Source of the DNA: a virus
Strand: one strand, 5' to 3'
DNA length: 22,468 nt
IMG/VR virus record: IMGVR_UViG_3300042311_000626
Location: 64,001-86,468 of that record
In this document: positions 1,181-22,468 of the stretch, piece after piece
Numbering within the stretch: the stretch's first letter is position 1
Layout: each line of letters opens with the position of its first letter
Made by a program: the position numbers and the translations under genes
Notes under the pieces: generated by a model
What the model saw: the letters and a program-made list of their open reading frames with translations, nothing else
What the model was told of the DNA's origin: nothing
Databases searched by the model: none

Positions 1181-1786
1181 ATGAGTTCAAACCATCACAC
1201 TGATGAGGTTTTTATTTACTTATTAGAATTAGAAGATAATAAAGTATATATAGGTAAAACTGTTAATCCTTCTCATAGATTTTATTCCCATAAAAAATCT
1301 AAAAATGTAATACAATTTACTATAATAGATAAAGTACCTAACTCTGAATGGAAATATTGGGAAAAATTTTATATAGAATTATTTAAAACTTGGGAATTTA
1401 AATTAGATAATAAAAATAATGGTGGAGGAGGACCTTCAAAAGGTCGATATTTAAGAAGCAAAGACCAAAATTGGAAAAATAATTTAAGTAAATCTCATAA
1501 AGGTAAAATTATTACTTCTGAAACACGTTTAAAAATGAGCAAATCTCATTTGAATAAACCATCACCATTTAAAGGTCAAACCCATACCTCTCAAACTTGT
1601 AAAATTATTAGTAAATCATTATCAAAATCTGTATTACAATATGATATTGATGGTAATTTACTTAATACTTTTACTAGCATAAAAGAAGCAGCTTTACAAA
1701 CCAAAACTAACAAAACCAGTATTTCGGGAGCATGCTCGGGAAAATATAAAAAAGTCGGAGGATATATCTGGAAGTATAATAACTAA
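1181..1786 (+). CDS. GIY-YIG homing endonuclease with NUMOD3 and NUMOD1 DNA-binding modules
   Basis: 201 residues. The N-terminal GIY-YIG nuclease domain shows 'IYL' at residues 12-14 and 'YIGKT' at 23-27, followed by Arg33 and a likely metal-binding Glu61. Residues 101-145 carry NUMOD3-type 'SKSHKGK...SETRLKMSKSH' repeats, and residues 150-199 form a NUMOD1 module ('QYDIDGNLLNTFTSIKEAA' then 'GYIWKY'). Proteins of this build cut a specific DNA site and copy their own gene into it. The gene is free-standing between the capsid terminator and phoH, with its own candidate promoter and no group I intron core that I can see. Its NUMOD1 module resembles the two in the endonuclease at 5210-5926. No Shine-Dalgarno site precedes the ATG. 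The family call is firm; the target site is unknown, but the neighbouring capsid or phoH sequence is the usual place to look. Confidence 0.92.
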   Translation: MSSNHHTDEVFIYLLELEDNKVYIGKTVNPSHRFYSHKKSKNVIQFTIIDKVPNSEWKYWEKFYIELFKTWEFKLDNKNNGGGGPSKGRYLRSKDQNWKNNLSKSHKGKIITSETRLKMSKSHLNKPSPFKGQTHTSQTCKIISKSLSKSVLQYDIDGNLLNTFTSIKEAALQTKTNKTSISGACSGKYKKVGGYIWKYNN

Positions 1787-5209: not shown

Positions 5210-5926
5210 ATGAATAACTTTTACGTGTACAGTCACATTAAAAAAACTGATGGAAAATGTTTTTATATAGGTAAAGGAACAGGAAATAGAGCCTTTACTT
5301 CTTCTTCTCGAAATAGATACTGGAATGAAATAGTTAATAAACATGGGTTTGTATCTATTATTTTAATTAATAATATATCTGAAGAAAAAGCATTTGAAAT
5401 AGAATCCCAATTTTGTAACCAAATTGGTTATAAAAATCTTACTAATATAAGAAAAGAAACTGGTTGGGGAGGTCATTCACACCAACCTGAAACTATATTA
5501 AAATTATCAAAGCCTATTTTTCAATATGATTTACAAGGAAATCTTGTAAAAAGATGGGAAAGTGCTACTTTAGCTTCCCAATTTTTTGGAAAAAATTCAC
5601 CAGCAGCCATTACGGAATGTTGTAGAGGGATTAGAAAAAGTATATATGGGTTTAAATGGAGACATATAGATAATCCTATAAATGAGTCTCCTAAACATAT
5701 AGTTAAAAAATTTAAAAAAGAAAAAATACCTCCTTATTATAATCCTATAAATCAATATGATTTAAAAGGCAATTTTATAAAAACATGGACTAATATAAAA
5801 GAAGCATCTCATATGTTAAAAATTAAAACTAGTTCTATTTCACAATGTGTAAATGGAAAATATAAAACATCTGGAGGTTTTGTTTGGTCAAAACTATTAA
5901 ATAAGGAAGGAGGTCATTTTGCCTAG
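5210..5926 (+). CDS. GIY-YIG homing endonuclease with two NUMOD1 modules
   Basis: 238 residues. The nuclease domain shows 'YVYSHI' at residues 5-10 and 'FYIGKGTGNR' at 18-27, with catalytic Arg27 and a likely metal-binding Glu65. Two NUMOD1 DNA-binding modules follow at about 101-152 ('PIFQYDLQGNLVKRW...') and 178-228 ('PINQYDLKGNFIKTW...'), each ending in a Gly-Phe-x-Trp motif. The ATG at 5210 has no Shine-Dalgarno site. The last eight bases overlap the TTG start of the tail fibre gene, and the final codons 'KEGGHFA' also spell a perfect ribosome binding site for that gene. The gene is therefore fused tightly to its neighbour, a sign of insertion with re-use of its own end as the new start region. 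Codon use is A-rich and less selected than in the fibre genes. Confidence 0.92.
   Translation: MNNFYVYSHIKKTDGKCFYIGKGTGNRAFTSSSRNRYWNEIVNKHGFVSIILINNISEEKAFEIESQFCNQIGYKNLTNIRKETGWGGHSHQPETILKLSKPIFQYDLQGNLVKRWESATLASQFFGKNSPAAITECCRGIRKSIYGFKWRHIDNPINESPKHIVKKFKKEKIPPYYNPINQYDLKGNFIKTWTNIKEASHMLKIKTSSISQCVNGKYKTSGGFVWSKLLNKEGGHFA
5907..5914 (+). promoter_or_regulatory. Strong Shine-Dalgarno site for the TTG start at 5919
   Basis: AAGGAGGT is followed by a 4-nt spacer (CATT) and the TTG at 5919. It is the only clear Shine-Dalgarno site I see before a gene in this window; other starts follow A/T-rich sequence. It lies inside the last codons of the endonuclease gene. Confidence 0.75.
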
Positions 5927-8900: not shown

Positions 8901-10502
8901 GCTTATGCAAATGGAGACAACAACGGATTTATTGGTACGGCAGGAGGTACGCATATACTTTCTCTAACAAGGTCTACAAATAATGCAAAATTAGCAGGAT
9001 ATGATGGAGTTATTTTTTATACAAATGCAACTACATTAGCAGGAGGTAGTGAAAGAATGCGAATCACTTCAGCAGGTGATGTAGGAATTGGAACAACAAG
9101 TCCTAACAGGCTATTAACAGTAGCTGGAACAACATCAGGATTAATAGCTCTAAATGCTTCAAGTTATAGAAATACAACAATAGGTTCGGATTCTGTAGGT
9201 AATTTTATTGTATATGATGATACTGCATCTTCATATAGAATGGTGATTAATTCATCAGGTAACGTAGGTATTGGAACGACAACACCGCAAAGAAAACTAG
9301 ACGTAATATCAGGAGCTAATAATTTTGTTTCTGTGGGGATAGATGCTGTAGCAGTTGGACAATGGGCTGGTCTTCATTTTGGATATGCAGAAGGTGCTAA
9401 TAACTTGTATAGAAAATCTGCAATAGTCTTTGAAAGAACAGATTTAACATCAAATAACGCTCAAGGAAAAGTACACATATTAAACGGGCCTCAAGGAAAT
9501 GCAGATAGTGCTACTTTAGCTGATTCTAAGTTAACAATTGCAGAAAACGGCAACGTTGGTATTGGAACAACAAATCCATTATATAAATTAGATGTTAATG
9601 GCACTGGAAGATTTTCAAGCGATCTATTAACAAATGCTAGATTTGGTGTTGGTAGTACAAATATAAACTCTAGAGTGTTTGCATCTGCTTTTTCAGGGGA
9701 ACTTGCAACCGCTATCTTTACAACATTTGATAGTGCTCAAGGTACACAAGAAGCGGCTAGATTTTCAACATCTGACCTTACTACTGGAGCTGTAAGAATT
9801 TACCCTCGTGTTGGGGTAGCAAATTTTAATGGAATAACTGTAGCAGATAGTGCAGTTATAGTTAATGCTACAACTAAACCAATACTTTTAGGAGTACAGG
9901 ATGGTTCAGCTGTTCAATTTACAGAAACAGATATTCGCATTGGAACTAATAATTCAGAAAAAATGCGTATCACTTCATCTGGAAATGTAGGTATTGGAAT
10001 ATCAACACCTACCTTAGGAACTTTACAAGTAAATGGAAATGTATTTGCAACTTCATTTACAGGTTCTTTACAAGTAACTAGTAGTCTTTCTTATAATAGC
10101 TCATTATCTACTTCTAACGTAAATGGAGAAATAGCATATTGGGGAGGAGGAACAGTAGCAGCAGGAACACTATACTATTATGATTCATCAGGAAACTGGA
10201 CAGCAGCAGATGCTGATGCTGAATCTACATCAACAGGAATGTTAGGAATAGCATTAGCAGCAGGAACAGCTTCAACAGTAGGAATACTATTAAGAGGACA
10301 TGCTAGATTTACAGGAGTATCAAGTTTTACAGGAACTACTACAGTAGGAGCAAAATTATATGTATCGACAACAGCCGGAGCATTTTCACAAACAGCACCA
10401 ACAGGTACAGGAGATGTCGTTAGAATAATAGGATATGTACAAAGTACAGCAAATGATCAAATTTATTTCTGCCCAGATACAACTTGGGTTACATTATTAT
10501 AA
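5919..10502 (+). CDS. Very long tail fibre protein with C1q-like domain and VGIGTTSP repeats
   Basis: 1527 residues. The TTG start is chosen because it aligns 'xPSWKKVIISGSNAALN' with the ATG start of the fibre at 3552 and follows AAGGAGGT; a stop at 5898 rules out an upstream ATG. Residues 77-228 form a C1q/TNF-like beta-sandwich ('GSYGSFYDTTTQT', 'GVYDIQFSAQVDKTDSG', 'IWIWLRKNGT'). Then comes a 'TGSFTGSFTGVFTGSLFG' segment and, from residue 334 to 1364, twelve copies of 'G(N/D)VGIGTTSP', each separated by variable beta-rich inserts. The C-terminus (about 1400-1527) is a compact module ending 'DQIYFCPDTTWVTLL'. A C-terminal S74 endosialidase-type chaperone, common in such fibres, is absent. 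No signal peptide is present. It is most likely a trimeric rod that reaches the host surface, with the C1q-like domain or the tip as binding candidates. Confidence 0.9.
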   Translation: MPSWKKVIISGSNAALNSLNVSNGITGSLFGTASFASNGGVTQLLAGPNITLSPTNGKGQVTVSSTSGGGGFNTATGSYGSFYDTTTQTNVAGTARSMSFNTTDITNGVSISGSTNPFNTYIKTENAGVYDIQFSAQVDKTDSGTDEIWIWLRKNGTNLTDTATSIQLVGNEAHYVAAWNFFVNSAANDYYQLMWYSPDANVRLHAEPEFGVVPGIPSVIVTANRVDQFLSNTGSFTGSFTGVFTGSLFGTSSFASTAQTASFVTGSNVFGPFGSNSVISASFAQTASFLNSTTNAFIQNGNSFGTTALLGTNDNQPLALETNGTTRMFISSSGDVGIGTTSPNGKLEIRGIESNTKDLLLNLSKFAYGTTQFYQNYSNTFYTAGKSLEIEVEALPLLQLAVNNAGSQGKVIFPNGNVGIGTTSPGGKLHISGAGSGLALTFGNSVPNNPLFINTYGDWSGIGMDQSNAGLRLVGDYTSGASLVDIGYYSSGTVSHANWVSKVKVMQSGNVGIGTTSPTYKFEVSDGTRTGVINPNSGLDAIFIGVTQSKPLIFGTGDTERMRITSAGNVLIGTTTDGGNRLEVVGTANNWAGSFTGNTTTGQSYGAIVRGGTNSSDVAFNVNNAANSTTYLNVRGDGNVGIGTTSPDAPLDIENTNATSIIYQRTGVSAKKWGFVSDNSNTYWSNITDNTLPFTLSNSGNVGIGTTGPSQKLDVSGSAYIAGNIILPQNPTGTTYGNGVSASPPYMINQGAGDNDAIRFYAESAATNQVSMVFEVNDDIETAGSEWIWRNKKTYGGYEATTPMRLSGAGELEVSKIVATSITGSLLGTASFAQTASFLNSTTNAFIQNGNSFGTTALLGTNDNQPLALETNGTTRMFISSSGDVGIGTTSSLGPLEVYRGNSGGLGGHIIVNNNGLAIGSSTALMFGDGPINGIRGAISTTTEDSPYYGQMDFKTGADIYSNLFTRMTIKGNGNVGIGTTSPSYKLDVLGDIGAYANGDNNGFIGTAGGTHILSLTRSTNNAKLAGYDGVIFYTNATTLAGGSERMRITSAGDVGIGTTSPNRLLTVAGTTSGLIALNASSYRNTTIGSDSVGNFIVYDDTASSYRMVINSSGNVGIGTTTPQRKLDVISGANNFVSVGIDAVAVGQWAGLHFGYAEGANNLYRKSAIVFERTDLTSNNAQGKVHILNGPQGNADSATLADSKLTIAENGNVGIGTTNPLYKLDVNGTGRFSSDLLTNARFGVGSTNINSRVFASAFSGELATAIFTTFDSAQGTQEAARFSTSDLTTGAVRIYPRVGVANFNGITVADSAVIVNATTKPILLGVQDGSAVQFTETDIRIGTNNSEKMRITSSGNVGIGISTPTLGTLQVNGNVFATSFTGSLQVTSSLSYNSSLSTSNVNGEIAYWGGGTVAAGTLYYYDSSGNWTAADADAESTSTGMLGIALAAGTASTVGILLRGHARFTGVSSFTGTTTVGAKLYVSTTAGAFSQTAPTGTGDVVRIIGYVQSTANDQIYFCPDTTWVTLL
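6765..6944 (+). repeat. 180-bp internal duplication, copy 1
   Basis: Encodes residues 283-342 of the large fibre ('FAQTASFLNSTTNAFIQNGN' onward to 'GDVGIGTTS'). It is identical at protein level to 8412-8591. I count nine base differences between the copies, all synonymous. Confidence 0.9.
6918..10010 (+). repeat. Array of twelve G(N/D)VGIGTTSP coding repeats
   Basis: Twelve copies of a DNA motif like 'ggtaacgtaggtattggaac' occur within the fibre gene, spaced irregularly. Ten encode VGIGTT; the fourth reads VLIGTT and the last reads VGIGIS. Each is followed within about 10 residues by 'KLDV' or a similar strand. This is a known fibre repeat, probably marking the start of each shaft subdomain. 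Confidence 0.88.
8412..8591 (+). repeat. 180-bp internal duplication, copy 2
   Basis: Encodes residues 832-891 of the large fibre, the same 60 residues as copy 1 at 6765-6944. Both copies are preceded by a Thr/Ser/Phe-rich segment. Confidence 0.9.
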
Positions 10503-10503
10503 T

Positions 10504-11100
10504 ATGGCATATATAGAAAAAGAATTAGTATTTCAAGAAAGTAAAATATACTTCGCAGACGCTACATCACCTACTGGAGAGAAAGCAGTAATGATGGATT
10601 GGGAAGATCCTATCATGTATGCTTCGGCACAGTACGTAGCAGAGAATGGAGGAAATATTCTAGAGATAGGATATGGTATGGGAATATCAGCAAATTACAT
10701 ACAATCATTCAGACCTACCTCTCATACAGTAGTTGAAATACATCCTGAAATAGCTAGTCAAGCAAGAAGATGGTCAAAGGGAGGAGAAGGAATAACAGTT
10801 TTAGAAGGAGATTGGTATAAGATAAAAAGTCAAATAGAAGAAAGAGGTCCTTATGATGGAATCTTTTACGATGCTTATGGAGATGACAATGAAAAAAAAA
10901 TAGTAGATTTTTGTATATCGATATTAAATAAAGGAGGAAGATTTACCTTATGGAATCCGCTACCTTACCCATTCACAGGTCAGAGGAAAGTTGAAAACGA
11001 ACAACTTACCTACGATATTATAGACCTATCAGGAATAAATGTACCAGATAACGATTACTTTAAACACGACGTTTACTACTTACCAAAAATACAGTTCTAA
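10504..11100 (+). CDS. SAM-dependent methyltransferase, guanidinoacetate/arginine (GAMT/RMT2-like) type
   Basis: 198 residues from the ATG at 10504, one base after the fibre stop. A longer in-frame form starting at 10435 would lie inside the fibre gene and lacks a family match there. Class I methyltransferase motifs are clear: motif I 'ILEIGYGMG' at residues 52-60, the acidic end of strand 2 in 'VVEIHPE' (Glu78), and 'YDGIFYDAYGDD' at 117-128. The preceding 'AVMMDWEDPIM' (28-38) together with 'GYGMG' and 'YDxY' is the pattern of guanidinoacetate N-methyltransferase and the arginine delta-methyltransferase RMT2. Glu34 and Asp123 sit in the regions that bind the guanidino group in that family. 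The substrate is unknown. Placement between fibre genes suggests a virion or host protein arginine, but a small guanidino compound cannot be excluded. Confidence 0.85.
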   Translation: MAYIEKELVFQESKIYFADATSPTGEKAVMMDWEDPIMYASAQYVAENGGNILEIGYGMGISANYIQSFRPTSHTVVEIHPEIASQARRWSKGGEGITVLEGDWYKIKSQIEERGPYDGIFYDAYGDDNEKKIVDFCISILNKGGRFTLWNPLPYPFTGQRKVENEQLTYDIIDLSGINVPDNDYFKHDVYYLPKIQF

Positions 11101-12471: not shown

Positions 12472-12480
12472 ATATTTATA
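12472..12480 (+). promoter_or_regulatory. ATATTTATA element, candidate phage promoter
   Basis: ATATTTATA lies in the 55-nt gap before the neck protein gene, 19 nt before the ATG at 12500, matching the spacing of the elements at 1151, 2506 and 3524. It would start the transcript for the neck and adhesin genes. Confidence 0.5.
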
Positions 12481-12499
12481 CCCAACAATATGTAAAAAA

Positions 12500-13672
12500 A
12501 TGGCAGACATCCCAGTATATAATGGTTCATCTCAATTCTTTCCAGGAGATACAGCCTTTGGTTTCTACGATTATCAATATGATTTTCAAATAGATGCTGA
12601 TAAGATTGTAACTTTTGTTACTCAACGTTTAGGATGGCCTATAGAAGTAGTTGAATTACAACCAATTCAAATATATACTGCTTTTGAAGAAGCAGTTACT
12701 GTGTATGGAAATGAAGTTTATCAATTTCAAATTAGAGAAAACATGCTTTCTCTTGAAGGAAACCAAACAGGTTCAGTTCCTTACAACCAACTATTATTAA
12801 CTCCTTCATTAGGAGGTGCTATTCGTATAGCAGAAAATTATGCTGAAGAAGCAGGAGTAGGGGGTAATGTAACTTGGTATAGTGGTTCTATTCTATTAGA
12901 AGGAGGTGTCCAAGAATACGACTTAAATAAGTGGGCACGCGAATCAGCTTCGCTAGCTTCTGGCGATTACATTGAAGTTAAACGCGTATTCTTTGAAGCG
13001 CCGCCAGCTGCGTTAAGATACTTTGACCCGTACGTAGGTATCGGTTATAGTTACGAAGGATTGCTAAATAGTTTTGGTTTTGGAGCATATTCTCCTGCTA
13101 TTACATTCTTATTAATGCCGTTGTTTTTTGACTTACAACGTATTCAAGCTATTAAATTAAACGATCAAATTAGAAGAGCACAATTTTCATTTGAAATCCA
13201 CAATAACCAATTAAAAATATTCCCAGTCCCATTACAAAAATATCCACTTTGGTTCCAATATATTAAAGGATCTGAAAGAGATAGCGCTATAGGTGGACGA
13301 AACTCTGAAGGTGTTCCACAAACTAATTTAATTACTAATACATCTAATGTACCTTATACAAATCCTAACTACAATTATATAAATTCTGTAGGAAGAATGT
13401 GGGTTTATCAATATACTTTAGCACTTTGTAGAGAAGTTTTAGGATATGTTCGAGGAAAATATTCAACTGTACCTATTCCTGGTTCAGAAGTAACATTAAA
13501 TCAAAATGATTTATTGACAGATGCTAGAAGTCAAAAAGAATCATTACTAGCTCAATTAAGAGAAACATTAGATCAAACAGGAAGACAAAAACAATTAGAA
13601 AAACTAGCAGCTAATTCTGAGAATTTATTAAAAGTTTTAAACGACGTTCCTATGGGACTATATATATTTTAA
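12500..13672 (+). CDS. 13: Neck (head completion) protein, T4 gp13-like
   Basis: 390 residues, longer than T4 gp13 (about 309). The N-terminal part 'FVTQRLGWPIEVVELQPIQI' then 'YTAFEEAVTVYGNEVYQFQI' fits the gp13 pattern of a helix, 'LG-x-P-x-x-x-V-E-L', and a second helix with 'A-x-E-x-A-x-x-x-Y'. The middle has beta-rich segments ('YIEVKRVFFEAPPA', 'NNQLKIFPVPLQKYPLWFQY'). The C-terminus is a charged helix ('ESLLAQLRETLDQTGRQKQL') ending 'DVPMGLYIF'. gp13 and gp14 form the neck ring that closes the filled head for tail joining. The call rests on remembered family pattern and on the gp14- and gp15-like genes found further downstream. It follows a candidate promoter. Confidence 0.68.
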   Translation: MADIPVYNGSSQFFPGDTAFGFYDYQYDFQIDADKIVTFVTQRLGWPIEVVELQPIQIYTAFEEAVTVYGNEVYQFQIRENMLSLEGNQTGSVPYNQLLLTPSLGGAIRIAENYAEEAGVGGNVTWYSGSILLEGGVQEYDLNKWARESASLASGDYIEVKRVFFEAPPAALRYFDPYVGIGYSYEGLLNSFGFGAYSPAITFLLMPLFFDLQRIQAIKLNDQIRRAQFSFEIHNNQLKIFPVPLQKYPLWFQYIKGSERDSAIGGRNSEGVPQTNLITNTSNVPYTNPNYNYINSVGRMWVYQYTLALCREVLGYVRGKYSTVPIPGSEVTLNQNDLLTDARSQKESLLAQLRETLDQTGRQKQLEKLAANSENLLKVLNDVPMGLYIF

Positions 13673-13673
13673 C

Positions 13674-14006
13674 ATGGTATCTTTAGAAAAATTATTAAGT
13701 GAAGCAACATTTGAAACATTCTTCGTTCAAGTAATTATTAAAATGAAGAATGATTTTAATTTTACTGAAATTTATAATCAAGTTAGAGGTATAAGAGATG
13801 TAATTGTTGTTAAAGTAATCGATAATGAACAATTAAATGCCGCTTCTAATGATTTGTATAATTATTCTTTATTAGAAATAAAATACATTTCTGAAGGAAA
13901 TGCAGTTGAAACGGCAAAAGGCATCAAATCAGAAGCTCTTAAAATACCAGGATTGGTAAAATTTGAGGTTAGAACAAAAACAATATTAAAAATTAGAAAT
14001 TACTAA
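13674..14006 (+). CDS. Small alpha/beta (ferredoxin-like) protein of unknown function
   Basis: 110 residues. The order is beta 'FFVQVIIKMK', helix 'NFTEIYNQVRGI', beta 'DVIVVKVID', beta 'YSLLEIKYIS', helix 'AVETAKGIKSEALKI', beta 'VKFEVRTKTILKI'. This beta-alpha-beta-beta-alpha-beta layout suggests a ferredoxin-like or ACT-like fold. It starts 1 nt after the gp13-like gene and 5 nt before the giant adhesin. It may be a conserved partner of the neck gene, as similar small proteins occur near structural genes in T4-like marine phages, but the function is unknown. Confidence 0.7.
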   Translation: MVSLEKLLSEATFETFFVQVIIKMKNDFNFTEIYNQVRGIRDVIVVKVIDNEQLNAASNDLYNYSLLEIKYISEGNAVETAKGIKSEALKIPGLVKFEVRTKTILKIRNY

Positions 14007-14011
14007 CAACA

Positions 14012-17000
14012 ATGGCTTGTAAAAATTATAATATTAGAATTAGACAAGTAGATTTAGACAATGCTATAAACAATCCAGACCCAAATTTAGATGGAAAGGT
14101 ATTTGTTAGCTTTACAGATTGTAATGGAAATCCTGAAAGTATCGCTTATTCCATAGCAGGAACATATTCTAATGCTTTTTGTGCTGATGATTCTGAAATG
14201 ATTGTTATTACTTATTCGTTTGAAGACATAGAAGTTATCACAGCTAACAGTACAGTAAACGCTGATGGGGAGTGCATTGCACCAACACCAACACCAAGTG
14301 TAACTCCAACAGTATCTATATCTCCTACACCATCTACAACACCGTTGTATCCATGTAATTGTATTAGTTTTACTAATATGTCACTATCAGAAGAAGCATT
14401 TGTTTCATATACACGATGTGATAATGTATCATCAAATATTCTTGCTTTAGAACCTAGTGATTCTATAACATTATGTGGTAGTGATCCTGGAGTAGTAGAT
14501 GGTGATGTAGTTATTCAAATTTTAGGAAATTGTGTTGGTAGACGTTGTATTCCATTTACACCAACACCTACACCATCATTAAGTATTACTCCTAGTTTTA
14601 GTGTAACGCCAAGTAATACACCAAGTGTAACACCAAGTATTTCTATTACACCTAGTAGAACACCAAGTATTAGTATTACACCTACTATATCACCTAGTAA
14701 AACAATACCACCTACTATGACACCTACTCCAACGATTAGTGTGTCTAAAACTCCGTCTCTTACACCACTACCAAGTGTTAGTAAGACACCTAGTGTAACG
14801 CCAAGTATTAGTATTACACCATCAAACGGAACTAGCCCTTCTCCAACACCATCTACTTCATTACCAATAGCTATACCAACTATAGCTGGTTTATGTATGA
14901 ATGTTCAATTTGGAGCAGCACCATCTGTAACACCAAGTATAACACCAACTAGAACACCAAGTATAACACCAACTATTTCAGTTAGTGTAACACCAAGTAT
15001 TACTCCTTCTACTACTCCAAGTGTTACACCATCAATTACACCATCGATTACACCATCAGTTACACCAAGTAGTACTGATCCACCGCCTCCACCAAGTCTT
15101 ACTCCTAGTAATACACCTAGTATATCTGTTAGTAATACACCTAGTTTAACACCAAGTAGAACACCAAGTAAAACACCAAGTATATCACGTACACCTAGTG
15201 TAACACCTAGTGTAACGCCAAGTATTACTCCAAGCAGAACACCTAGTATTTCTATTACTCCAACTCCATCTACTTCGAGACCTTGTACACCATGTGCTTT
15301 ACCTGATGTTGTTATTGGAGCACAAACATGGACAGCATGTAATTTAGATGTTACTACTTATAGAAATGGTGACATAATTCCACAAGTAACTGATCTTACT
15401 CAATGGGAAAATCTTACAACAGGGGCATGGTGTTACTATGATAATAACTCTATAAATGGTTGTACCTATAATAAATTATATAACTGGTATGCGGTGACTG
15501 ATCCTCGTGGATTAGCTCCGGTTGGGTATCATGTACCAACAGAGGCTGAATTTAGAACATTAGCTAATTATTTAGGAGGTACAAATGTAGCAGGGGGTAA
15601 ATTAAAATCAACAGGAACCACACTTTGGAACAGTCCTAATGCAGGTGCAACAAATGAAACAGGTTGGACTGGATTACCAGGAGGGGGGAGATCAAATGGA
15701 CAATTTAATTCAAAAGGTATATCTGGTCCTTATTGGACTTCTACACCTGATCCAAATCCAAATCCTGGGTTTACTAATTTAGCAACCTATATCGACCTAT
15801 ATAGCTTCAATCAACTACTTGATTTTAAAGGCTTTAGTAAAACTAGTGGATATTATGTACGTTTAATTAAAGACGTTCCAAATCCACTTACATGTAATAC
15901 CATATTATATAAAACACAAGGAAATCAATATTATTTATATAATTTTTCAACTAATACATCTACATTATTAAATGTACCTGCTGCACCATTTGATAGTGTT
16001 GCAACTTCATTAGGTATTTCTATAGCACCACTAGCCCGTACTTCTAATAAATTATGGTCTTACACATGGAATGTTAACGGTGGAGGTTTAAATAATAATA
16101 GTATAGTAGAATACAATACAACAAGTAACCCATTCACCGCAACTATTAACAGATATATTGCTTTACCCCAAGCACCAGAATCTACTTTTCCAGGGGGAAC
16201 AGAGTTCTATCCAGGAACTGGTTTATTTGCTATTAGTAATACAAAATTAATAGGGACTGTAAATAGAATAGGTGGTCTCCAATTACGTTCTATAGCATCG
16301 CAACAAGATGTAGTAGATAGCCCTTCAGCTAAATATGTTAATGGTGTAATGGTAGTAGAATATGATATTACATCAAATGTAGCTACTTGGACTCTTAAAG
16401 TTAAGTTACCTCCACAAGAAGATCCAGCAGGAGATTTACTATTAACTTCAGATAATAAACTTATAGTACTTACTAAATACCAAAATTATCATTTTTTAAA
16501 TCAATATAATTACAATACAGGAGTATTAGAATTTAGAAAACAAATATCACCTACTATAACAACAGATTGTGGTTTAGCTCAAGTAAATAATGAAATATAT
16601 TTAATGGGGTATAATGTGTATAAGTTTAATCCTACAACATTTGCATTAACATTAGTTCAATCACCGCAAACACAATTAGTAGCGGCTTCGCAATTAGCAA
16701 GTTGTATTAATGTAAATTTACCTACATCAAGTTGTTCTGAATGTTTAACATTACCTTTAAAACTATCAACTCCTATGAATTATAATGGAATTAATATAAT
16801 TCCTACATACACAGGACCAGTAGCTTCTGATAATTTTTTCCCATTAAGTACCTTAGGAATGCCAGTTTGTGAAGGAACTAATGTTACAACATATCCATCA
16901 TATTCTGCTTTTCTAGGAAACCTTTCTGGAGATTATACATATTCTTTAAATTTTAGCCAACCAGTAAATAATATTAAAATATCATATGGTGGAACTAATA

Positions 17001-18244
17001 GTAATCCTAACCCAGGTGAATTATTTACTTGGAATACAAATGTAGGAGTTCCTAATATATCATTATGTAAAGGATGTTATCAAACAGTAAATGGAAATAC
17101 AGTAACCGGCTCTTCATCAGGGAATATTAATTTAGGTGAAATTCAACAAGCTGGTGGAGGAATAATAACAATATCAGCTCCATTAAATTACACAACATTA
17201 ACTTTAACATCACCTGGAGGTAATCAGGGTTCAGTATTTAGTATATGCTCAGGAAGTATAATACCACAACCATCTAATGCTTTAGGATGTGTTTATATGA
17301 GTAGTTTTACAACAGGATTAACTTACTTATATAATGTTAATAATAATACATCGTCATCTGTTACTCTTCCTGTAGATCAACAACCAAATCCTAGTATTCA
17401 AGCTATTACAGATACTCATACTTCTACTAAATATTGGAGAGGTAATAGATGGGGTACTATTAAGGAATGGAATACCACTTCTACACCTAATGTGTTAGCA
17501 TTAAATAGAACAATAACAATACAAGGATTCCCGTTTCCATTTGGTAATGATCAAAAACAATGGAATAAAATGCAGGCTATAGATGATAATACATTGTTAG
17601 TTTGTGCAAACTACACTATACCTAATACCCCAGAAAATATATATTTTGGTAATTGGATAAATACTATAACATTATTTGATATAAGCAGCACTACTAATAT
17701 AGTTGGTTCTGCTCAACAAACACCATTATTTAACGTTTATGCACCTGCAGGTAATGTAGATGCACTTTTATTAACTACTAATAATAAATTAATAATCATT
17801 GGAAGAAGAGGTAATGGAATTAATCCATTTAATTATAATAATTATTATTTATCTCAATATTCTTATCCTGATGGTGCTTTAGAATTAGAGGTAAGTTTAA
17901 ATAATTATCTTCCCTCTTCAGGAGATGGAGGTACTACATACCTAGTTGCTTTATTTGAATCAGGTAATGGAAAAATTTATGCAAAAGTAGCAGCACAAAC
18001 TATTGGCGCACCAAGTATAACATATGAAGTTAATTTAAATTCTCCATATATATTTACTCAAGTTTGGAGTGGTATAGATCAACGAAATTTTTATTTTAAT
18101 TCATCAATTAACTGTAATACAGTAGCATTAAATCCAGCACCACCACCACCATCATTATCACCAACACCAACACCTAGTTTAACACCACCAGTGTCACCTA
18201 ATGTAGGAGTTAATACAATTTACAAATATTTAGATATTTTATGA
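14012..18244 (+). CDS. Giant modular adhesin: Cys-rich modules, TPS stalks, FISUMP domain, two propeller-like domains
   Basis: 1410 residues, with no signal peptide, so it is probably virion-bound. Order: a small Cys module at 1-88 ('VFVSFTDCNGNPES... FCADD'); a first Thr-Pro-Ser linker; a second Cys module ('AFVSYTRCDNV... LCGSD'); long TPS linkers at about 183-283 and 303-421; a FISUMP domain at about 432-622 ('VVIGAQTWTACNLDVTTYRN', 'NWYAVTDPRGLAPVGYHVPT', 'SGYYVRLIKD'). It continues with a WD/Kelch-like beta region at about 630-908; a Cys-bounded beta domain at about 910-1085; a second, related beta region at about 1091-1371; and a final Pro-rich tail. FISUMP domains are known from Fibrobacter and Bacteroidota surface proteins. 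The gene lies between gp13-like and gp14-like genes and overlaps the protease start by four bases (ATGA). Host attachment is the likely role; the ligand is unknown. Confidence 0.85.
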   Translation: MACKNYNIRIRQVDLDNAINNPDPNLDGKVFVSFTDCNGNPESIAYSIAGTYSNAFCADDSEMIVITYSFEDIEVITANSTVNADGECIAPTPTPSVTPTVSISPTPSTTPLYPCNCISFTNMSLSEEAFVSYTRCDNVSSNILALEPSDSITLCGSDPGVVDGDVVIQILGNCVGRRCIPFTPTPTPSLSITPSFSVTPSNTPSVTPSISITPSRTPSISITPTISPSKTIPPTMTPTPTISVSKTPSLTPLPSVSKTPSVTPSISITPSNGTSPSPTPSTSLPIAIPTIAGLCMNVQFGAAPSVTPSITPTRTPSITPTISVSVTPSITPSTTPSVTPSITPSITPSVTPSSTDPPPPPSLTPSNTPSISVSNTPSLTPSRTPSKTPSISRTPSVTPSVTPSITPSRTPSISITPTPSTSRPCTPCALPDVVIGAQTWTACNLDVTTYRNGDIIPQVTDLTQWENLTTGAWCYYDNNSINGCTYNKLYNWYAVTDPRGLAPVGYHVPTEAEFRTLANYLGGTNVAGGKLKSTGTTLWNSPNAGATNETGWTGLPGGGRSNGQFNSKGISGPYWTSTPDPNPNPGFTNLATYIDLYSFNQLLDFKGFSKTSGYYVRLIKDVPNPLTCNTILYKTQGNQYYLYNFSTNTSTLLNVPAAPFDSVATSLGISIAPLARTSNKLWSYTWNVNGGGLNNNSIVEYNTTSNPFTATINRYIALPQAPESTFPGGTEFYPGTGLFAISNTKLIGTVNRIGGLQLRSIASQQDVVDSPSAKYVNGVMVVEYDITSNVATWTLKVKLPPQEDPAGDLLLTSDNKLIVLTKYQNYHFLNQYNYNTGVLEFRKQISPTITTDCGLAQVNNEIYLMGYNVYKFNPTTFALTLVQSPQTQLVAASQLASCINVNLPTSSCSECLTLPLKLSTPMNYNGINIIPTYTGPVASDNFFPLSTLGMPVCEGTNVTTYPSYSAFLGNLSGDYTYSLNFSQPVNNIKISYGGTNSNPNPGELFTWNTNVGVPNISLCKGCYQTVNGNTVTGSSSGNINLGEIQQAGGGIITISAPLNYTTLTLTSPGGNQGSVFSICSGSIIPQPSNALGCVYMSSFTTGLTYLYNVNNNTSSSVTLPVDQQPNPSIQAITDTHTSTKYWRGNRWGTIKEWNTTSTPNVLALNRTITIQGFPFPFGNDQKQWNKMQAIDDNTLLVCANYTIPNTPENIYFGNWINTITLFDISSTTNIVGSAQQTPLFNVYAPAGNVDALLLTTNNKLIIIGRRGNGINPFNYNNYYLSQYSYPDGALELEVSLNNYLPSSGDGGTTYLVALFESGNGKIYAKVAAQTIGAPSITYEVNLNSPYIFTQVWSGIDQRNFYFNSSINCNTVALNPAPPPPSLSPTPTPSLTPPVSPNVGVNTIYKYLDIL
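14282..14345 (+). repeat. Thr-Pro-Ser linker repeat, first block
   Basis: Short degenerate 'acaccaagt'-type repeats encode 'PTPTPSVTPTVSISPTPSTT'. The block separates the two N-terminal Cys modules of the giant adhesin. Confidence 0.85.
14558..14862 (+). repeat. Thr-Pro-Ser linker repeat, second block
   Basis: About 100 residues of 'TPS-(V/I)-TPS-ISI' units, built from 9- and 12-base variants of 'acaccaagtattagtatt'. Probably an extended, flexible or rod-like stalk. Confidence 0.9.
14919..15276 (+). repeat. Thr-Pro-Ser linker repeat, third block
   Basis: About 119 residues of the same repeat, directly before the FISUMP domain, interrupted once by a poly-Pro stretch ('DPPPPPS'). Confidence 0.9.
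18136..18200 (+). repeat. Pro/Thr/Ser-rich C-terminal tail of the giant adhesin
   Basis: Encodes 'PAPPPPSLSPTPTPSLTPPV', a short relative of the TPS linkers, ahead of the last 14 residues. Confidence 0.75.
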
Positions 18245-19518
18245 TAACAAATAAAAAAATAGAAGAATTATACGAATCTACCCCAAACTATGTTGGGGTA
18301 GGTTTCGGTTTTAGACTTAAAAATAGAGAATATACAGAAGAACATGCTATTATTTTTACTGTAGATAAAAAACGTCCTATTGAAGAAATACCTGAAGATG
18401 AATTATTACCTAAGGAAATTGAAATTGATGGTGTTATTTATAAAACCGATGTTGTTGAAATTGGAAAAATAGAATTAATGTCATGTAGTACTACTACTTT
18501 AAATACTTGCTATAATTGGAGAGCACCCTTTATATATGATGGAGTACAATATGGGTTAAATATACCACCAGGAAATAGAGGATACATTAGACCTTTAAAA
18601 GGAGGTATTTCTTCAATATCACAGAACCAATCAGGTTACATGGGTACATTAGGATTCATAGCAGTAGATAATACAAAGAATGCCTTAGTAGGAGTAACTA
18701 ATAACCACGTTGTAATAGGAAATGCATTTTACACAGCATTAAGAAACGCCTCACCTGTAAATGAATATCAAGATATAGTATGGCAGCCTTCACCTTGGGA
18801 AACTAACCCGCCAAACACAAACTCAGCATATGTAATAGGAGAAGTAGCAAGATATGTTCCTATACATGCTAATGCTTATAATCAAGTAGATGGAGCATTA
18901 GTTACTATAGCACCTTCAACCGTAACTAATGCTGAATCATTTAAACAATATGGTTTAGCTTATAGTACTCCAATGCCTTTTGCTACAGCAGCAGAAATTG
19001 ATCAATTGTTATACACTAATCCTCCTATATATAGTAGTGGAAGAACATCAGGAGTAAAATTTGGTGGGTTATGTGGGTTAACAACTTTTGCTTTAAATAT
19101 GACAGTACCTGTAGGATCATCAAGCCCACCACCACCATCTGGTTATAATTTAGATGGAACTAAGGTTCCTGTAACTTTTAGTAGAATTATAGGATTTACT
19201 AGAACTAGTGTACAATGCCCTTTTCCTGTAGTAGGTGGAGACTCAGGATCAGCTTTAATAGCTGATTTTAATGGAGTTTACAAAATCATAGGGTTAGTAT
19301 TTGCTGCAAGTGAATATTATGGATTTGCTTGTAGAATAGATGAAGTAGCATCTCAATTAAATATATCAGCTTGGGATGGAACTACTAAAAACTATTTTAA
19401 TACAGGTTCAAGACAATTTAGAACAACACCGGGTGGTAGCTATGATAAAACAATAAATTGTAATGATAATATTTATTGGCAGGTAGGAACAATCAGCAAT
19501 ACTAACCCTTGTAATTAA
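18241..19518 (+). CDS. Trypsin-like serine protease with Nal1-like N-terminal domain
   Basis: 425 residues, with no signal peptide. A complete chymotrypsin-fold triad can be read: His156 in 'VGVTNNHVV', Asp217 in 'NQVDGALV' and Ser335 in 'GGDSGSAL'. The N-terminal 75 residues ('NYVGVGFGFRLKNREYTEEH', 'IIFTVDKKRPIEEIP', 'YKTDVVEIG') match the domain that precedes the protease in bacterial and plant Nal1-like serine proteases. The C-terminal about 50 residues are an extra Asn/Thr-rich segment. This is not the T4 prohead protease gp21, which is a different family. The ATG overlaps the adhesin stop by four bases, and another adhesin gene follows after 9 nt, so it is co-expressed with both. It may process the adhesins or digest host surface protein. 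Family confidence is high, role uncertain. Confidence 0.9.
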   Translation: MITNKKIEELYESTPNYVGVGFGFRLKNREYTEEHAIIFTVDKKRPIEEIPEDELLPKEIEIDGVIYKTDVVEIGKIELMSCSTTTLNTCYNWRAPFIYDGVQYGLNIPPGNRGYIRPLKGGISSISQNQSGYMGTLGFIAVDNTKNALVGVTNNHVVIGNAFYTALRNASPVNEYQDIVWQPSPWETNPPNTNSAYVIGEVARYVPIHANAYNQVDGALVTIAPSTVTNAESFKQYGLAYSTPMPFATAAEIDQLLYTNPPIYSSGRTSGVKFGGLCGLTTFALNMTVPVGSSSPPPPSGYNLDGTKVPVTFSRIIGFTRTSVQCPFPVVGGDSGSALIADFNGVYKIIGLVFAASEYYGFACRIDEVASQLNISAWDGTTKNYFNTGSRQFRTTPGGSYDKTINCNDNIYWQVGTISNTNPCN

Positions 19519-19527
19519 AATATATAA

Positions 19528-20892
19528 ATGTTAAACATAAGCTTTACATTCACAGGATACTTAAATGGACGCCCATATTGGACATCAACTCAATATGGTA
19601 TGCAAATGATATGGACTGGACCTTATTGGGAAATTATAAATTGGCCATATGATGGGACACCTGTAAATTATACTGATACTGATATTCCATTAACAGGATG
19701 GCAACTTATAGATAATACAACTATGACTGCTAATTTTACTGTTAATTTAGGTGAATGTTGTTTTAACTATTCATTTGTTAATAATGTAGGACGATCATTT
19801 TTAGATATAAGTTATGTAGATTGTAATGGAAATCCTCAAGAAATAATAGCAGGATTCGGATTTTCAGGATCATTTTGTGCTAAATCTATATCTTATGTAT
19901 CCAACCCAGGATCATTGAATTTAACTGGAAATTCATGCCCATCTAATACAAATTGTTATAACTGGGAATTAATAGGACCTGTAACAGTATATTACACAGA
20001 TTGTAACGGAGTATCAGGAAATATGGCTACTGTACCTAACGGAGAGTTTGGTCCTAGTATTTGTGCTCTTAGTATAGATATATGGGATAATGCAGGTAAT
20101 TTCTATATTCAAGGATATTGCGATGACCCATCAGTATCAACAACACCAAGTGTTACACCATCAATAACACCATCAATAACACCAAGTACAACACCAAGTA
20201 GAACACCATCAACTTCTCCACCACTTCAAATACATTCAGTTTATAGTTGTTGTAATAGTAGAAAAGAAGGAATGTTAATATCAGATGCATTTATAGGTTT
20301 GACTGTAATATCAACAACAGGTGAATGTTTCTTTGTAAATAGTTCTATTGAACCAACAGCAACTGTAACATGGGATGGTAATTTAGGATATGTGAATTGT
20401 AATGAATGTACAGCTATAAATCTATGTCCGCCACCATCACCAACACCTAGTATTAGTGTCAGTAGAACACCAAGTGTAACACCAAGTACAACACCTAGTA
20501 TTAGTATAAGTAAAACACCTAGTGTAACGCCTAGTGTAACACCTTCAATTTCGATTAGTAAAACACCTAGTGTAACACCAAGTGTAACACCAAGTATCAC
20601 TCCAAGTACAACACCACCAGGTATATCATATTCATTTTATGCTAATGATTGGACTCCTTTTGGCCCATGTAACACTCCTGCTTATAATATATTTTCAGGT
20701 AGTGACGGTAAATATTATGCTTCAGATGATGGTGGAAATACCTTTACATTACTGTATTCTATAGCTGAGAACTGGTATCAACTTGTAGGTTACGATCCAT
20801 TCTTTATGGAAGATGTTTATCAACAATATGTAGTAAATTCAACTTCTACAACGATAACAATTGGTGGAACATTATTTTCTACATGTTTTTAA
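19528..20892 (+). CDS. Second modular adhesin with Cys modules and TPS linkers
   Basis: 454 residues, with no signal peptide. It starts with an aromatic-rich domain ('FTGYLNGRPYWTSTQYGMQM', 'WTGPYWEIINWPYDG'), a pattern that suits sugar or surface binding. Two modules of the type also found in the giant adhesin follow: 'LDISYVDCNGNPQE... FCAKS' and 'VTVYYTDCNGVSGN... ICALS'. A TPS linker comes next at about 201-231, then another Cys-rich domain ('VYSCCNSRKEG', 'LGYVNCNECTAINLC'), a second TPS linker at about 301-364, and a C-terminal Tyr/Trp-rich domain ('NDWTPFGPCNTPAYN', 'YQLVGYDPFF'). It closes the accessory block between gp13- and gp14-like genes. An adhesin or fibre tip is inferred from the modular build; no enzyme motif is visible. 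Confidence 0.78.
   Translation: MLNISFTFTGYLNGRPYWTSTQYGMQMIWTGPYWEIINWPYDGTPVNYTDTDIPLTGWQLIDNTTMTANFTVNLGECCFNYSFVNNVGRSFLDISYVDCNGNPQEIIAGFGFSGSFCAKSISYVSNPGSLNLTGNSCPSNTNCYNWELIGPVTVYYTDCNGVSGNMATVPNGEFGPSICALSIDIWDNAGNFYIQGYCDDPSVSTTPSVTPSITPSITPSTTPSRTPSTSPPLQIHSVYSCCNSRKEGMLISDAFIGLTVISTTGECFFVNSSIEPTATVTWDGNLGYVNCNECTAINLCPPPSPTPSISVSRTPSVTPSTTPSISISKTPSVTPSVTPSISISKTPSVTPSVTPSITPSTTPPGISYSFYANDWTPFGPCNTPAYNIFSGSDGKYYASDDGGNTFTLLYSIAENWYQLVGYDPFFMEDVYQQYVVNSTSTTITIGGTLFSTCF
20128..20223 (+). repeat. Thr-Pro-Ser linker repeat in the second adhesin, block 1
   Basis: Encodes 'TTPSVTPSITPSITPSTTPS' and a few more residues, the same repeat type as in the giant adhesin. Confidence 0.88.
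20428..20620 (+). repeat. Thr-Pro-Ser linker repeat in the second adhesin, block 2
   Basis: About 64 residues of 'ISISKTPSVTPSVTPS'-type units. Lys and Arg occur at regular points ('SKTPS', 'SRTPS'), as also seen in the giant adhesin. Confidence 0.88.
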
Positions 20893-20909
20893 AATATTAA
20901 ATAAACAAT

Positions 20910-21410
20910 ATGGCTTTATACGGTTCATCTAGAGATATTTCATTTTTTCATGTTATTAACAGAGAGTTAATTCATAACATCATTGAACAAAACATAGGAT
21001 ATTATCAAATATCACTAGATGAAACCTCTGTAAATGTATATGGTGAAGCAGCTAATGGTACTAAAATGTACTATCCGCCTGTTTTAATTCAATGTTTAAT
21101 TGACAGAGGTGATTATGAAGGTGATTATGATGCTCAAATCGGACCTGACTTTACTAGAAATTTTTCATTTAGATTTTTAAGAAGAGATTTAGTTGACCAA
21201 AACGTAGTACCTCAAATAGGTGATGTTGTTTTATGGAATAATGATTATTATGAAGTTAATTTAGTAAACGAAAACCAAGACATAGTAGGTAAAGTACCTC
21301 AATACAATTATGGAGGGGCTTACTTAGATGATTTTGGAGCAAGTTTTTCAATAATTTGTAATGCACATTATGTATCACCAGAATCATTAGGATTAACTCA
21401 AACTAGATAA
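20910..21410 (+). CDS. 14: Neck protein, T4 gp14-like
   Basis: 166 residues. 'LYGSSRDISFFHVINRELIH' at the N-terminus, 'YPPVLIQCLIDRGDY' in the middle and 'PQIGDVVLWNNDYYEVNLVN' near the end form a pattern I associate with neck proteins of T4-like marine phages. The last segment is comparable to 'GDLIYF...LFEINWV' in T4 gp14. It is shorter than T4 gp14 (256 residues). gp14 joins gp13 in the neck ring that binds the tail. The position immediately before a gp15-like gene, as in T4, supports the call. The start follows 'aataaacaat' without a Shine-Dalgarno site, and the stop overlaps the next ATG by one base. Confidence 0.65.
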   Translation: MALYGSSRDISFFHVINRELIHNIIEQNIGYYQISLDETSVNVYGEAANGTKMYYPPVLIQCLIDRGDYEGDYDAQIGPDFTRNFSFRFLRRDLVDQNVVPQIGDVVLWNNDYYEVNLVNENQDIVGKVPQYNYGGAYLDDFGASFSIICNAHYVSPESLGLTQTR

Positions 21411-22468
21411 TGGCAAATCAATTACCAATATTACCAAATACACCAGCTCGTGCTTTAAATGAATATATAGAACCGTACATACCAGGTACAAAACCTATAT
21501 TACCTGAAGATTTAATAACTAGAGCTAGTCAAATATCTGTTGATATTGAAAACGATGTTAAACCATTTTCAATTGGATTACAAGATATTGATGATGCTGT
21601 ATTCTTTTACTTTAATAATATTATAAAACCAACAATAGTTCAAAATGGTAATCAAATACCTGTACCTGTTTCTTATGCTTCTGCTGAAAGATGGGTATCT
21701 GTTCAAAAAGATGGGTATTTTAGAGATAAGAATGGAAAAGCAATGCATCCATACATTATTGTAAGAAGAACTGGATTTGAAAAAAATAGAACATTAGCAA
21801 ATAAATTAGATGGTAATAATGTAAATAACTTTGCTGTTGCTAGAGCTAGGTATAATTCTCAAAATCAATACACCAATTTTGATGTTTTAAATAACGTAAC
21901 ACCATCTGAGAAATTCTATTTAACTCCTGTACCAGATTATGTTAATATAACGTACGAATGCGCCATTATTACCAATTTTATTCAAGAAAACAACAAAATC
22001 GTCGAATCAGTAGAGTTTGCGTCAGATTCGTATTGGGGTGATAAAAATCGTTTTCAATTTAGAACATATATTGATAGATTTGACTCTACAAATGAATATG
22101 GTGTGAGTGATCAACGTATAGCCAAAACAAGTATGAATTTAACACTTTATGGTTATATTATTCCTGACACTATCAATAGAGATATGGCTACAAATGGTAA
22201 AAAACAATTCTTCTCTAAATCAATTGTTTCCATTACCGCCGAAACTTCAGTTAATGCTGATGGGAGAATAGCAGCTCCTACTGCCCCAAGAGTTAGTCAA
22301 CCTTTACCTAGTGTAATACCAAGTATATCAATTACACCAAGTATATCAATTACGCCTAGTGTAACACCAAGTATAAGTATATCACCTAGTATTACACCAA
22401 GTACATCAATTATACCTAGTATATCTGTAACACCAAGTATTACTCCAAGTATATCAATCACACCTAGT
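21410..22468 (+). CDS. 15: Tail completion/sheath terminator protein, T4 gp15-like, with TPS C-terminal extension (3' end outside the window)
   Basis: 353 codons are in the window, without a stop. The ATG at 21410 overlaps the previous stop (TAATG). 'IPVPVSYASAERW' resembles 'IRVPITYASKEHF' of T4 gp15. 'NITYECAIITNFIQENNKIV' resembles its 'MIYELSIFTRYEDDMFQIVE', and 'SMNLTLYGYIIPD' resembles its late strand region. gp15 is the hexameric ring that ends the tail tube and sheath and meets the neck. T4 gp15 ends at about 272 residues, and the matching core here ends at about 275. After 'SVNADGRIAAPTAPR' a Thr-Pro-Ser repeat begins near residue 298 and continues past the window edge. This extension is not part of T4 gp15 and matches the adhesin linkers upstream, so a further surface domain may follow. 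Confidence 0.72.
   Translation, partial: MANQLPILPNTPARALNEYIEPYIPGTKPILPEDLITRASQISVDIENDVKPFSIGLQDIDDAVFFYFNNIIKPTIVQNGNQIPVPVSYASAERWVSVQKDGYFRDKNGKAMHPYIIVRRTGFEKNRTLANKLDGNNVNNFAVARARYNSQNQYTNFDVLNNVTPSEKFYLTPVPDYVNITYECAIITNFIQENNKIVESVEFASDSYWGDKNRFQFRTYIDRFDSTNEYGVSDQRIAKTSMNLTLYGYIIPDTINRDMATNGKKQFFSKSIVSITAETSVNADGRIAAPTAPRVSQPLPSVIPSISITPSISITPSVTPSISISPSITPSTSIIPSISVTPSITPSISITPS
22301..22468 (+). repeat. Thr-Pro-Ser linker repeat on the gp15-like protein
   Basis: At least 56 residues of 'PSISITPSVTPSISISPS'-type units, cut by the window end. DNA units such as 'acaccaagtatatcaatt' are the same as in the two adhesin genes. Confidence 0.92.

Follow-up and report, generated by a model that had tools for sequence, protein, structure and literature searches.

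The DNA analysed here raises the question of how two adhesin genes and a protease gene came to lie within the gp13-gp14-gp15 series of a T4-like phage, and what their products may do together. The window, i.e., the whole stretch of 22,468 nucleotides, comprises bases 64001-86468 of virus record IMGVR_UViG_3300042311_000626, which totals 86,468 bases. It opens on the left with the last part of the major capsid gene; PhoH comes next, then a tail-fibre-like region containing a 1527-aa ORF and the gp13-like gene, followed by a 110-aa gene, adhesin A, the protease, adhesin B, the gp14-like gene and the start of the gp15-like gene. Judging from the PhoH gene, which matches that of Flavobacterium phage immuto at 89%, the host is probably a member of the Bacteroidota. 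The features considered below are as follows.

12500..13672, + strand: gp13-like head-tail adaptor gene, left flank (PHROG 211 and T4 gp13 matches)
13674..14006, + strand: 110-aa gene, left border of the insertion (67-96% identity in relatives)
14012..18244, + strand: adhesin A, 1410 aa (ORF; Pfam Fib_succ_major; domain exchange relative to L004/L005)
15308..15871, + strand: Fib_succ_major (FISUMP) domain, adhesin A residues 433-620 (Pfam)
18212..18241, + strand: C-terminal tag NTIYKYLDIL, adhesin A residues 1401-1410 (family statistics)
18241..19518, + strand: NAL1-type trypsin-like serine protease, 425 aa (invariant triad; NAL1 profile match)
19528..20892, + strand: adhesin B, 454 aa (ORF; third gene of the block in L004, L005, L009 and L057)
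20910..21410, + strand: gp14-like head-closure gene, right flank (position; weak fold matches to phage neck proteins)
21410..22468, + strand: gp15-like tail terminator gene, running past the window end (hhalign; Laminin_G_3 in the L003 copy)

The initial annotation had described 14012-20892 as filled by a 1410-aa adhesin, a trypsin-like protease and a 454-aa adhesin with overlapping or nearly touching ends, and all three ORFs are present as described: adhesin A and the protease share a 4-nt ATGA overlap and the protease is separated from adhesin B by 9 nt. Chance ORFs are ruled out, since the three are long, homologous and in order. Elsewhere in the window, a methyltransferase-like gene (10435-11100) overlaps the 3' end of the 1527-aa tail-fibre gene and is limited to the window's own lineage, except for a weak match in L020.

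Insertion of the three-gene block

Profile searches against T4 proteins supported two of the three neck assignments that had been proposed. The gp13-like gene matches PHROG 211 (5e-10), T4 gp13 (hhalign, E 8e-10) and the PDB entry of T4 gp13 (6e-8). For the gp15-like gene, the scores are modest but agree in direction and modestly support its identity (T4 gp15, hhalign 80%, E 1.4e-5; Pfam T4-gp15_tss 1e-4, below the Pfam cut-off). The gp14-like gene is left without sequence support, as no match to T4 gp14 was obtained; its position is conserved among relatives, and its structural model is poor (pLDDT 47) and was treated merely as a hint, the best eight fold matches of this model including head-tail connectors, lambda among them, with Pam3 neck ranking first and T4 gp14 second, all at weak E-values. 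The gp13-gp14-gp15 order is kept in Microcystis phage Mel-JY01, the uncultured phage LR756508 and the Flavobacterium immuto phages, whose gp14 gene is missing from the annotation. In phage immuto itself (L059, MW353176.1), the gp14 gene (about 21502-21985) is intact yet unannotated, and two short minus-strand ORFs are annotated at the site instead.

The flanks of the block are as the initial annotation gave them, except that it overlooked the 110-aa gene after gp13. This gene is 67-96% identical in relatives, keeps its place between gp13 and gp14 within the close clade and is missing from distant relatives; the insertion point is thus placed between the 110-aa gene and gp14. A clean empty site is found in L006, whose identity to the window is 91% across 12472-14006 and 90% across 20889-22233; nothing lies between, the 110-aa gene and the gp14 gene being one base apart. 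At the gp13-gp14 site, the block is absent from L006 and about 20 further close loci, and it is also absent from Mel-JY01, immuto, LR756508 and about 40 viral loci. It occupies the window site in four lineages (the window with its near copies L002 and L003, L004, L005 and L051), and the three genes are found in identical order upstream of gp13 in L009 and L012/L057 plus their copies. The proposed insertion into the gp13-gp14-gp15 series is therefore borne out by gene order in relatives, where most sites are empty, and the empty sites rule out an ancestral position of the block. Together with the copies upstream of gp13, which keep the gene order expected of a self-contained unit, the empty L006 site indicates an insertion able to sit elsewhere.

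In a gp13 tree, which excludes L051 as its contig carries no gp13, L006 with its empty site and the occupied lineages that have gp13 make up a single supported clade with four members. This suggests that the block entered a young clade or changed place inside it, unless it was acquired and then lost in L006. GIY-YIG endonuclease-like genes are found at window positions 1181-1786, adjoining the capsid gene, and 5210-5926, before the tail-fibre gene, the latter carrying NUMOD1 domains. L018 (3144-3265) retains 38 codons of a GIY-YIG homing endonuclease at the exact site of the window's block, and this remnant together with the two window genes makes homing-endonuclease traffic at the insertion site plausible. 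Taken together, the best explanation is that a freshwater T4-like phage acquired the block as a movable surface module.

Two adhesins and a NAL1-type protease

Adhesin A consists of Cys-rich N-terminal domains, SITPSVTP linkers, a lectin-like domain, repeated Cys-bounded domains that by appearance are all-beta, and a C-terminal tag. Its Fib_succ_major domain (Pfam 1.9e-35) is missing from adhesin A of L004, where other sequence takes its place, and such domain exchange in L004/L005 is what one would expect of receptor-binding proteins that swap domains. The same domain is present in a distant tagged adhesin in L088 (6.5e-70). Adhesin B shares the domain style of adhesin A, with Cys-bounded domains and SITPS linkers, and has no C-terminal tag. 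Proteins composed mostly of [ST]xTP repeats are also encoded in the structural regions of L007 (13200-18392, 202 copies) and L004 (7447-9393, 89 copies). The FISUMP/Fib_succ_major domain of adhesin A is named in a survey of diversity-generating retroelements (DGRs) (PMC4159848); unlike the FISUMP proteins linked to DGRs, those here have no reverse transcriptase in the contigs examined, and a DGR target was rejected on finding no RVT_1 in 11 records, several of them incomplete.

The protease was identified as trypsin-like in the initial annotation, and the intact catalytic triad, the NAL1 profile match and the fold of a family member all agree. Codons for H156 (18706-18708), D217 (18889-18891) and S335 (19243-19245) were checked, and the His-Asp-Ser triad is invariant in 24/24 aligned family members. 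The family profile matches plant NARROW LEAF 1 (NAL1) at 5e-7, and the structural model of the L075 protease matches NAL1 structures (1.6e-14) as well as chymotrypsin-like proteases. Similarity to plant NAL1 extends over the trypsin-like catalytic domain and, tentatively, a NAL1_N-type N-terminal region (E 0.01 for the window protein and 6e-4 to 1e-5 for other members, under the Pfam cut-off); the phage proteins differ in being only about 15% identical, in being encoded beside an adhesin and, for most family members, in carrying an extra conserved C-terminal YWQxG segment. This segment correlates with the tag described below, a suggestive association that is confounded by ancestry. We know of no adhesin partner or tag for NAL1.

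Relatives of the protease were found in viral contigs (54 in one scan and 180 in another), many of them from unrelated phages. Searching 50,697 annotated phages with three queries from the family returned none, and two scans of 84,980 bacterial and archaeal species gave one weak match; these scans were pattern-based and can miss distant relatives. In L087, L102, L108 and L111 the protease is fused to adhesin-type domains, and two to four proteases of the family occur in tandem in L218, L091 and L075.

The C-terminal tag upstream of the protease

The initial annotation missed a C-terminal tag that is more telling about mechanism than the insertion site. The ORF directly upstream of the protease usually ends in a linker (TPTP-, TTTT- or PPP-type) followed by a short tag. 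In a set of 51 protease relatives from phages, made non-redundant at an 85% cut, the motif T[IVL][YFW]xx[FYWLI], scored within the last 20 residues, is found in 33/49 upstream ORFs versus 2/559 other ORF ends (Fisher 5e-40); all 40 other linker-rich ORFs lack it. When this predefined motif was applied without change, held-out contigs gave 7 matches among 19 new non-redundant cases (p 4e-10) and several more near-matches (e.g., QSIFMFIPNL or NTIYVHVP). As the sequences are related, these p-values overstate independence. Once tag and linkers are removed, the tag-bearing ORFs fall into nine groups, one of them large, with no detectable mutual similarity. About a third of family members have no recognisable tag upstream; the proposal that tagless proteases are instead those fused to adhesins is not significant (p 0.19). 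One tagged adhesin, in L130, ends in two tag copies (NTVFAKYDVVPGPTQDEVKTVFVKYDVQ).

Codons of the tag vary synonymously and its spacing to the protease start ranges from overlap to +18 nt, demonstrating that the peptide is kept rather than the DNA and ruling out a ribosome-binding site or overlap artefact. In the tandem arrays of L075 and L218, a protease itself ends in a tag ahead of the next one. AlphaFold2 modelling of the 612-aa L075 protease (protease-domain-linker-tag) predicts tag residues 600-610 as a strand (pLDDT ~79) after a linker with pLDDT 30-45. This model shows a single chain rather than a complex, comes from a phage other than that of the window, and does not give the strand partner; since such a strand needs a partner, that partner must lie in the folded part of the L075 protease.

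Possible docking or cleavage, and relation to known systems

These observations suggest that the adhesin and the protease act together, whether the tag docks or is cut. With modest confidence, we favour a reading in which the movable module encodes a virion-borne binding and cutting unit. More specifically, a flexible linker at the C-terminus of the long multidomain adhesin leads into a short beta-strand tag, and the NAL1-type protease encoded directly after it would receive this tag by strand addition. The docked pair would then be carried by the virion as one unit that binds the host surface and then cuts a protein there, adhesin B serving as a second binding protein. A virion-borne unit fits the surroundings of the block, namely structural genes and lectin-like domains.

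The main rival to docking is cleavage at the tag: the protease would cut the adhesin near the tag during assembly, as with a removable C-terminal propeptide, and need not remain on the virion. Trypsin-like enzymes bind substrates as beta strands, and the strict gene neighbourhood, the conserved tag and the triad intact in all 24 aligned members count in favour of a maturation signal. However, the conserved stretch stops a few residues short of the C-terminus and is followed by varying residues, no common P1 residue is seen at the tag, and in some phages protease and adhesin-type domains are fused in cis; we consider cleavage unlikely, if still a serious contender.

That the adhesins assemble at the neck beside gp13/gp14/gp15, as the initial annotation suggested in proposing whisker-like fibres, is improbable. 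Besides the position of the block between neck genes, this placement draws on a protease gene one ORF before the sheath gene in L109 and on gp15 itself. The gp15-like gene, in a plain 291-aa form in many close relatives, is extended in the window (21410-22468), L003 (18911-20815), L008 (2291-4066) and L012 (12010-13788); gp15 of the window phage, L008 and L012 has an extra C-terminal region on a linker like those of the adhesins, and in the L003 copy the full-length 634-aa protein ends in a LamG-type lectin domain on a SITPS linker (Laminin_G_3 7.7e-9). These extensions make binding domains at the neck plausible, and the LamG-type domain is possibly one displayed there; this fusion is the best neck hint and is separate from the adhesin block. 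For the block, however, gene position does not give virion position, which leaves the whisker reading unsupported: in L009/L012/L057 the block precedes gp13, for most pairs elsewhere no neck gene was detected in the vicinity, and no similarity to T4 fibritin (wac) was found by phmmer in the protease loci, including the window-block copy L064. In T4, wac also adjoins gene 13 but precedes it, whereas the block follows the 110-aa gene after gp13.

We give little credence to the proposal that these are ordinary baseplate or tail-fibre adhesins next to a free soluble protease, the tag being a leftover of co-moved last codons, since, although the protease gene starts right after the codons of the tag and recombination could carry both, the tag is in frame in nine unrelated upstream protein groups, with synonymous codon changes, variable spacing and a positive held-out test.

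Fibres with a downstream-encoded partner, bacterial C-terminal sorting tags and plant NAL1-type proteases are all already known. In the gp37/gp38 pair of T-even phages and in Tfa-type systems, the fibre gene is followed by one whose product targets the fibre's C-terminus. The block resembles these in that a putative partner gene lies directly downstream of a fibre gene, and differs in that this partner is a protease and that the element recognised would be a ten-residue tag, predicted to follow a disordered linker and common to unrelated fibres. Sortase and exosortase systems pair a short C-terminal tag on diverse surface proteins with an associated enzyme. Diverse adhesins here likewise carry a short C-terminal tag and have an associated enzyme, but the tag has no hydrophobic membrane segment or basic tail, the proteins are those of phages, there is one enzyme gene per tagged protein and the enzyme is unrelated. 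In the open-access literature, we found nothing relevant on a phage NAL1-type protease or similar tail protease, and no description of a NAL1-type protease combined with a tag that unrelated phage adhesins share. The adhesin-protease pair forms the core of the block, and its recurrence in many unrelated uncultured phages suggests an undescribed way to mount a protease on a phage adhesin.

More generally, and tentatively, the pairs may constitute a phage display system in which one interchangeable beta-strand tag, borne by unrelated adhesins, fits into a NAL1-type serine protease dedicated to it. Such a system would yield protein-cutting receptor-binding fibres that can exchange the adhesin and retain the tag-protease socket. 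If true, docking would be an apparently new phage route to combine host binding with proteolysis, and the portable tag would predict the pairing of surface proteins and proteases in uncultured phages, providing a functional lead for a protease family found here almost solely in uncultured viruses.
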